A stretch of DNA of 42,055 bases, taken from positions 1-42,055 of the forward strand of contig CANHRE010000002.1 of the NCBI GenBank assembly GCA_947463095.1, given 5' to 3'. Made by a program: the position numbers and the translations under genes. Below the pieces are notes generated by a model that saw nothing but the letters and a program-made list of their open reading frames with translations, searched no databases and was not told the origin of the DNA. Positions 32,917-36,739 of the stretch are shown piece after piece. The DNA comes from Flavobacteriales bacterium (GTDB lineage Bacteria > Bacteroidota > Bacteroidia > NS11-12g > UBA955). How positions within the stretch are numbered: the first letter of the stretch is position 1; every line of letters begins with the position of its first letter.

Positions 32917-35321
<2,405 letters not shown>

Positions 35322-35342: not shown

Positions 35343-35370
35343 AAAAGCCCTGCCAAGCGGGGTTTTTTTT
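35343..35370 (+). terminator. Terminator after eno
   Basis: CCCTG (35348-35352) pairs with CGGGG (35358-35362) around CCAAG, with A residues before and eight T after (35363-35370). The stem includes one G-T wobble pair. It separates carA-eno from the tube-protein gene. Confidence 0.75.
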
Positions 35371-35454
35371 GTTTATTTGTGTATGCTGCCGCAGAATCTG
35401 ATTTGGATAATCATCCTGCCGGCGGCATGTATATTATTATTGATCATCATCACC

Positions 35455-35961
35455 ATGGCAGGTTTTACAGTAAACGTGCATCGCGCAGACCCTTACAAGA
35501 ACTTTAAGTTCCGTATTGTCTGGGATGGTCGGGTTATAGATGGAATTGAACGCATATCAGGTTTGCGAAGGGAAACCGAAGTTGTGGAACATCGCACGGG
35601 TAGTGACCCCAGCATGGTAAGGCGTTCTCCGGGTATTACTCAGTACAATCCCATCGTGCTCGAGCGCGGACGTACCCATGACAACGCTTTTGAAAGCTGG
35701 GCAAATCTGGTATTCAGCATCGGTGCACCGGCAGGCGAAGAAATGAGTCTGAAAACCTTCCGCAAGGACATTGAATTAAGTTTGCTTAATGAGTCAGGGC
35801 AGGTGGTAATGAGTTTCCGTGTATTTCGCTGCTGGCCCAGCGTGTATGAACCCCTTGCAAATCTGGACGGCAATGGACACGACGTGATGCGCGAGAAACT
35901 GGTACTGCAACACGAAGGCTGGGAGCGCGACCTGTCTGTGCAGGAACCGGTAGAGCGGTAG
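35455..35961 (+). CDS. Contractile-tail tube protein (T4 gp19 / eCIS tube family), orphan
   Basis: 168 residues beginning MAGFTVNVHRADPYKNFKFR. The sequence shows the pattern of inner-tube proteins of phage tails and extracellular contractile injection systems: VWDGRVIDGIERISGL, EVVEHRTGSDPSMVRRSPG, VLERGRTHDNAFESWANLV, LKTFRKDIELSLLNESGQVV and the end HEGWERDL. Such proteins polymerise into the hollow tube inside a sheath. No sheath, baseplate, spike or ATPase gene is within the window, so the gene stands alone between eno and truA. The frame stays open upstream to an ATG at 35383 and would add a strongly hydrophobic 24-residue segment; I prefer the ATG at 35455 because family members usually begin there. 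A domesticated remnant or a tube used with parts encoded elsewhere are both possible. Confidence 0.85.
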   Translation: MAGFTVNVHRADPYKNFKFRIVWDGRVIDGIERISGLRRETEVVEHRTGSDPSMVRRSPGITQYNPIVLERGRTHDNAFESWANLVFSIGAPAGEEMSLKTFRKDIELSLLNESGQVVMSFRVFRCWPSVYEPLANLDGNGHDVMREKLVLQHEGWERDLSVQEPVER

Positions 35962-36013: not shown

Positions 36014-36739
36014 TTAATAATTCACCCCTGTTAAAAACAATCCTTTTGCAGGCACACTTTGTCCGGCGTCGGATCTTGTTCCTCCTTCGAGAAGGCCTTG
36101 GAACCAGTAAGGCGGTTGTTGTCCGTATCCTACTTCCAGTAAGCTGCCAACTACAGCCCGGACCATATTTCTCAGGAAGCGGTTCGCTTCAATGGTAAAC
36201 ACCAGTTGCTCATCCTGTTCTTCCCAAAAGGCCTGGTAAATATGGCATTCATAGCCGTAATGTGCGGGTTCTTCACCTTTCGTAAAGCTCTTACAGTTTC
36301 TGATACCTGGAAGCAATGCTGCACAGGTATTTAATAAGTGCAGATCAGGTCGTTTATGCTGCATCCATGTCAAATGGGGTGAAAATGGATTTTTTGCAAA
36401 TGAAAGCTCGTATCGGTAGGTACGCGATAAGGCGCTGAATCGAGCATGGAAGCTGTCTGATACCGGCATGCAGTTCATGGCGGCTATGTCATCAGGCAAC
36501 AGGCTGTTCAGTCTATGCAGAAAGCGATTGGGTAGAGGTTGATTGCTGTCGAAGTGCAAAGGGAAGAAGCGGGCATGTACTCCGGCATCGGTTCTGCCGC
36601 AACCTATTGTTTCCACCGGCATTCTCAGCAGGATGGCTATGATTTCTTCTAAAGTCCCTTGAACGGTAGCCTTGCCAGGCTGCTTTTGCCATCCGTGGTA
36701 GGCGGTTCCATTAAAGCTGATGTCCAGCCGGAACCTCAT
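36014..36739 (-). CDS. truA: tRNA pseudouridine(38-40) synthase TruA
   Basis: 241 residues. TruA makes pseudouridine at positions 38-40 of the tRNA anticodon arm. It begins MRFRLDISFNGTAYHGWQKQ; the catalytic Asp51 is in GCGRTDAGVHA; SRTYRYEL and FLRNMVRAVVGSLLEVG follow as expected. It overlaps the thiolase gene by four bases (ATGA at 36736-36739) and is translated from the same mRNA. Length is near the family minimum. Confidence 0.96.
   Translation of the reverse strand: MRFRLDISFNGTAYHGWQKQPGKATVQGTLEEIIAILLRMPVETIGCGRTDAGVHARFFPLHFDSNQPLPNRFLHRLNSLLPDDIAAMNCMPVSDSFHARFSALSRTYRYELSFAKNPFSPHLTWMQHKRPDLHLLNTCAALLPGIRNCKSFTKGEEPAHYGYECHIYQAFWEEQDEQLVFTIEANRFLRNMVRAVVGSLLEVGYGQQPPYWFQGLLEGGTRSDAGQSVPAKGLFLTGVNY

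Follow-up and report, generated by a model that had tools for sequence, protein, structure and literature searches.

A conserved solitary tube protein of the contractile injection system family with a probable membrane anchor in a genus of Flavobacteriales

Introduction

Tube subunits of contractile machines can be encoded away from the genes with which they work: an orphan Hcp of the T6SS lies apart from the main cluster and usually serves a T6SS of the same genome. Contractile machines can also be tied to membranes. The thylakoid-anchored contractile injection system (tCIS) of Anabaena is a membrane-anchored CIS, and the helix is found in its tail-fibre protein, Cis13 (PMC8894136). Extracellular contractile injection systems (eCIS) have been surveyed by accepting linked groups of at least 10 core genes (PMC8213781), a threshold by which solitary tubes are passed over by construction. 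A literature search, with subscription journals mostly outside its reach, found no paper on solitary eCIS-type tubes.

Can a tube protein be kept without the machine to which its family belongs? If so, what would it do? The window analysed here, a stretch of 42,055 nucleotides from a Flavobacteriales bacterium, contains a candidate. An earlier note on this DNA had described an isolated gene between eno and truA, preceded by a terminator and encoding a member of the T4 gp19-like tube family, and had offered three options: a domesticated tube, a subunit that serves an injection locus far away, or the final remnant of a system since lost. Here we compare the gene with its relatives, follow it through its genus, and search its genome and others for the rest of the machine.

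Results

The gp19-type tube domain lies at 35455..35961 on the forward strand, stop codon included (coding to 35958), and comprises 168 amino acids from the ATG at 35455. The frame matches the Pfam profile PF06841 over its full length (E 6.6e-35, 120.3 bits against a cut-off of 28.2) and also TIGR02241 (E 6.3e-34, 116.8 bits against a cut-off of 62.4). The nearest solved structures are the tubes of AlgoCIS and of the Anabaena CIS (2e-17 and 1e-16; PDB 7adz, 2.2e-17). An AlphaFold2 (AF2) model built from 30 sequences has a mean pLDDT of 73, and Foldseek pairs it with the CIS tubes 7b5h and 7adz at E values of 7e-11 to 9e-11 and a TM-score of 0.76 by target length. The product is a gp19-type CIS tube protein with a predicted tube fold, and the family assignment of the earlier note is upheld by these matches. 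As to a phage origin, the sole phage matches, tail tubes of Streptomyces phages, are 27% identical and thus indicate no recent phage link.

Upstream of the tube gene are, in order, a ribosomal-protein supercluster, carA and eno (enolase; 34032..35321, forward strand); downstream are the convergent truA (36014..36739, reverse strand) and a thiolase gene, with eno and truA named from their translations. The intrinsic terminator of eno, a stem-loop followed by a T run (predicted at 35343-35367 and delimited as 35343..35372, forward strand), separates the tube gene from eno and ends about 11 nt before an ATG at 35383, and an alignment shows the stem and T run in both congeners as well. No injection-system gene was found elsewhere in the window; the isolation of the tube gene stands as first described. 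A sigma-70 promoter scan near the gene returned 2 sites where 1.0 was expected and is uninformative.

Is the gene stable at this position? Our sample of the genus consists of three species, represented by the genome that contains the window (G000) and by G001 and G002. The order eno-tube-truA, which the earlier note had proposed to check, is kept in all three, with tube identities of 85% and 77%. When the window is compared with G002, a pair whose synonymous sites are saturated, the tube has a dN of 0.21, which lies between the values for eno (0.13) and truA (0.43). Low dN across the three species, and the absence of decay, answer the question of selection that had likewise been raised: the tube domain is under purifying selection and slowly evolving. 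Its shared position and low dN mean that the gene is neither decaying nor strain-specific. A complete injection cluster at this spot in relatives, or confinement to a single decaying strain, would each have spoken against the earlier view; we looked for both and found neither, and in particular no complete cluster occupies the eno-truA spot in either congener.

Where does the protein begin? The earlier note had placed its start at 35455, but the frame is open to the ATG at 35383, and 35455 is probably not the sole start. The 24 in-frame codons at 35383..35454 (forward strand) encode MLPQNLIWIIILPAACILLLIIIT ahead of the tube domain, a hydrophobic segment and probable membrane anchor. The reading frame thus probably starts at ATG 35383, adding a hydrophobic helix. 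An equally long hydrophobic segment, free of indels, precedes the tube domain in both congeners. The dN/dS of the segment is 0.50 and 0.87 in comparisons with G002 but 0.22 for the closest pair of species; AF2 places a helix at residues 7-23 with low confidence, and a simulation of chance hydrophobicity gave P values of 0.06-0.13, which are weak alone. Given the ratios against G002 and the simulation, the segment's own evidence is moderate. In the congener alignment a Bacteroidota-like -7 box, TATCTTTG in G002, lies just upstream of ATG 35383, and transcription starting from it could leave only ATG 35455 usable.

If the latter start were the one used, the product would be a soluble solitary tube, cytoplasmic or released, and the upstream frame would be leader or promoter DNA. 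The -7-like box in G002, the weak hydrophobicity test and the higher dN/dS ratios against that species are consistent with this, as is the fact that most homologues begin exactly at MA[EQ]F. A gp19-domain protein has also been reported in the granule secretome of Ca. Accumulibacter, where it was the most abundant of its cluster and was read as a tubular-protein subunit (PMC12019908). Against a soluble tube stand the 24 hydrophobic codons kept in three species without an indel, and two N-termini elsewhere in the Bacteroidota, described below: an unmistakable helix in the lineage f2 g16 and a signal-peptide-like start in G373. We regard it as quite unlikely that the soluble form is the whole account.

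Among Bacteroidota, a hydrophobic N-terminal segment is present in 7 of 10 solitary tubes and in none of 43 cluster tubes (Fisher P 8e-7). Related species inflate the count of seven, and three lineages is the fair number: the window genus, the lineage f2 g16 (G066, G068, G071), and G373. The solitary tubes of f2 g16 (L037:9889-10416, L249:5995-6525, L250:5998-6522) are of another CIS type and carry an unmistakable N-terminal membrane helix with a dN/dS of 0.15-0.24, while in that of G373 (L212:670-1299) the tube domain is preceded by a signal-peptide-like start, MKIFKGILVFVIAIGFVCTTQEAVAQ. The solitary tubes of two complete genomes, G151 and G413 (L219:5989-6468 and L230:5983-6465), bear N-terminal extensions that are short, basic and amphipathic. 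The solitary Bacteroidota tubes of G472 and of Mucilaginibacter (L130) have no N-terminal hydrophobic extension, nor do the solitary tubes outside Bacteroidota. Judged at the level of sequence, this comparative evidence for a hydrophobic N-terminus is stronger than that of the segment itself, and membrane anchoring of the window tube is probable.

Which tubes are the closest relatives? A scan of GTDB genomes yielded at least 511 relatives of the window tube, and the best 80, chosen by closeness to the window, were kept. Sixty-three of the 80 belong to eCIS clusters and have a sheath gene nearby, to which the tube is usually the immediate 3' neighbour. The remaining 17 have no sheath in the stretch examined, 'solitary' being judged from at most 6 kb on each side of the tube, with some stretches ended by a contig edge. 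Outside the genus, the nearest homologues within the best 80 are 55-62% identical, solitary, and drawn from several phyla, and most of the relatives closest to the window are solitary tubes; identity to tubes within eCIS clusters of many phyla is 52-56%. In a tree of 87 tubes, which includes the 17 solitary relatives and three tubes of the window genus, a single branch separates these 20 from the 63 sheath-adjacent tubes (support 77/88, 1 change). Mapped by itself, the solitary label requires 2 changes on the tree, against 15.8 in shuffles. The solitary tubes, those of the window genus included, would accordingly group as a cross-phylum clade, on a branch of moderate support that is not starred. 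Solitary and cluster tubes also differ at several positions, and the window genus has R38, P66, L110 and E147 in common with the solitary type. Neither this clade nor the N-terminal extension had been noticed in the first reading of the locus.

These relationships bear on whether the gene is a remnant of an eCIS lost from the lineage, its tube surviving by chance. The tube family is indeed an eCIS family, the same taxonomic family and order include other genera with full clusters, and a DUF4255 copy interrupted by two stops is present in G068. A remnant would nevertheless have to account for low dN in three species, the same single-gene unit at the same position without decay, and nearest relatives that are solitary tubes of other phyla and not cluster tubes of the same family. 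We consider a remnant very unlikely; as a recent event, the remnant option of the earlier note is not supported by the congeners, which show neither a cluster at the spot nor decay.

No conserved functional neighbour of the solitary tubes was seen by eye, except for two tubes with a Cis7-like gene downstream. In a Verrucomicrobia MAG (L094:6001-7056) and a Bathyarchaeota MAG (L120:6001-7373), the solitary tube is followed by this gene and no sheath is present. Plasmids were considered as a source of solitary tubes; all three plasmid matches inspected have a sheath directly upstream, and plasmids are therefore not shown to be that source.

Does the genome encode the rest of the machine elsewhere? 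G000 is 95.7% complete and contains one sheath gene (G000:C4:6654-8219; L032:6654-8219), solitary and on a different contig from the tube, so that the linkage of sheath to tube by which an eCIS is recognised is absent. The sheath frame is open and intact (521 amino acids) and has SirB1-like and topA genes (identified by their translated products) downstream of it, in an order shared with G001 (L033); dN/dS between the two sheaths is 0.19. Its eCIS class is that of the cluster sheaths, and it matches the Mucilaginibacter L139 sheath with a phmmer E value of 5e-146. The sheath search did not find this type in G002, whose sheath is instead of the AlgoCIS type, 655 amino acids long and also solitary (L034:714-2681). 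For gp25 (PF04965) there was no match in G000-G002, while the cluster-bearing controls G117 and G118 were positive; the DUF4255/Pvc16 cap protein (PF14065), found in G009, G056, G117 and G118, likewise had no match in the three genomes. Baseplate_J (PF04865) gave no match in G000-G002 either, with a model that also missed the cluster-bearing G056. Most comparison genomes are MAGs, and absences therefore carry some risk. The lack of machine genes noted at the outset concerned the window, and it holds there; in the genome, the search for machine genes that had been called for found no gp25, DUF4255 or Baseplate_J match and one intact solitary sheath. The option of a subunit serving a distant injection locus is weakened by the former, and the latter leaves room for a dispersed two-gene device.

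Across 26 solitary-tube genomes, 18 have no sheath match (G066, G109-G112, G114-G116, G373, G413, G472, G514-G520), and one of them, G413, is a complete single-contig genome. Sheath matches occur in the other eight (G000, G001, G002, G068, G071, G108, G113, G151). G113 has gp25 elsewhere in its genome in addition to the sheath match, so its solitary tube may serve a real machine. In G068 the sheath is solitary, 449 amino acids long and placed between unrelated genes (L036:9226-10575); a match to the cap protein DUF4255 in the same genome is interrupted by two in-frame stops (G068:C14:8553-8939) and is possibly a decayed CIS gene.

Could solitary tube and solitary sheath still assemble into a dispersed, minimal contractile device, anchored by the tube helix and lacking a classical baseplate? 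An intact sheath of the same class in G000 and G001, in the same context and with a dN/dS of 0.19, means that the two may still work together, and in G068 and G071 a tube with a helix likewise coexists with a sheath gene carried on a different contig. The missing gp25, DUF4255 and Baseplate_J matches in G000-G002 argue against such a device, as do the different kind of sheath in G002 and the tubes kept by G066, G413, G472 and G373 with no sheath match. With so many members of this last sort, the class in general is less likely to work in this way, and we think the device unlikely here. A lone tube or sheath match does not in itself prove an injection system.

Discussion

That the gene encodes a conserved stand-alone tube protein is well supported. 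Domestication, the first of the three original options, is favoured by its retention at one spot in three species, its slow evolution, its solitary nearest relatives across phyla and the many solitary-tube genomes with no sheath match. A well-conserved lone tube, together with a scattered family in many phyla, suggests a part that was given a separate job. More specifically, we put at about even chances that it is a domesticated eCIS-type tube, produced in part or in full as a membrane-docked ring, and neither a needle nor a fresh remnant.

How might this have come about, and how might it work? From translation start through membrane location and topology to ring formation and any function, the scheme is one that we infer. 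The tube gene would have left a sheath-tube operon and been kept as an independent single-gene unit. In the window genus, initiation at ATG 35383 would yield, at least in part, an N-terminally membrane-anchored form, and the retained internal ATG at 35455 could also give a soluble one. The tube domain would keep its fold and form hexameric rings. These may sit at the inner membrane on its cytoplasmic side, the side being proposed from the basic residues after the helix, and could provide a collar for docking or a platform for a pore instead of a propelled needle. More broadly, domesticated cross-phylum tubes may have acquired a membrane helix or signal peptide on several occasions in Bacteroidota, with rings acting at the membrane as collar, pore or scaffold without sheath, baseplate or spike; this extension we hold tentatively, as somewhat less than an even proposition.

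A membrane-held subunit with a retained fold could alternatively be a decoy or immunity factor, capping or poisoning contractile tubes that arrive from phages, tailocins or eCIS. The likely membrane location and the patchy spread across phyla would suit such a role, but the gene is surrounded by housekeeping genes and lies in no defence island, and its slow evolution is not that of an arms race. We consider this highly improbable, and return to the domesticated, partly membrane-docked tube. If such tubes work alone, one component of an injection machine has turned into a membrane protein with a task of its own, and the repeated gain of hydrophobic N-termini would show that attachment to the membrane is what matters.

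How, then, does the protein compare with known systems? It shares sequence family and predicted fold with the Cis1/Afp1-type inner tube of eCIS, as in AlgoCIS and the Anabaena tCIS, and differs in that no sheath, baseplate or cap cluster is adjacent, in its probable N-terminal membrane helix and in its solitary-type residues. As in the tCIS, a component of contractile systems would be attached to a membrane; there the anchor is Cis13 within a full machine, whereas here it is probably on the tube subunit itself and the machine is absent. Similar to an orphan Hcp, it is a tube subunit encoded away from any main cluster, but it belongs to the gp19/eCIS family and not to Hcp, and no complete machine was found in its genome for it to serve.
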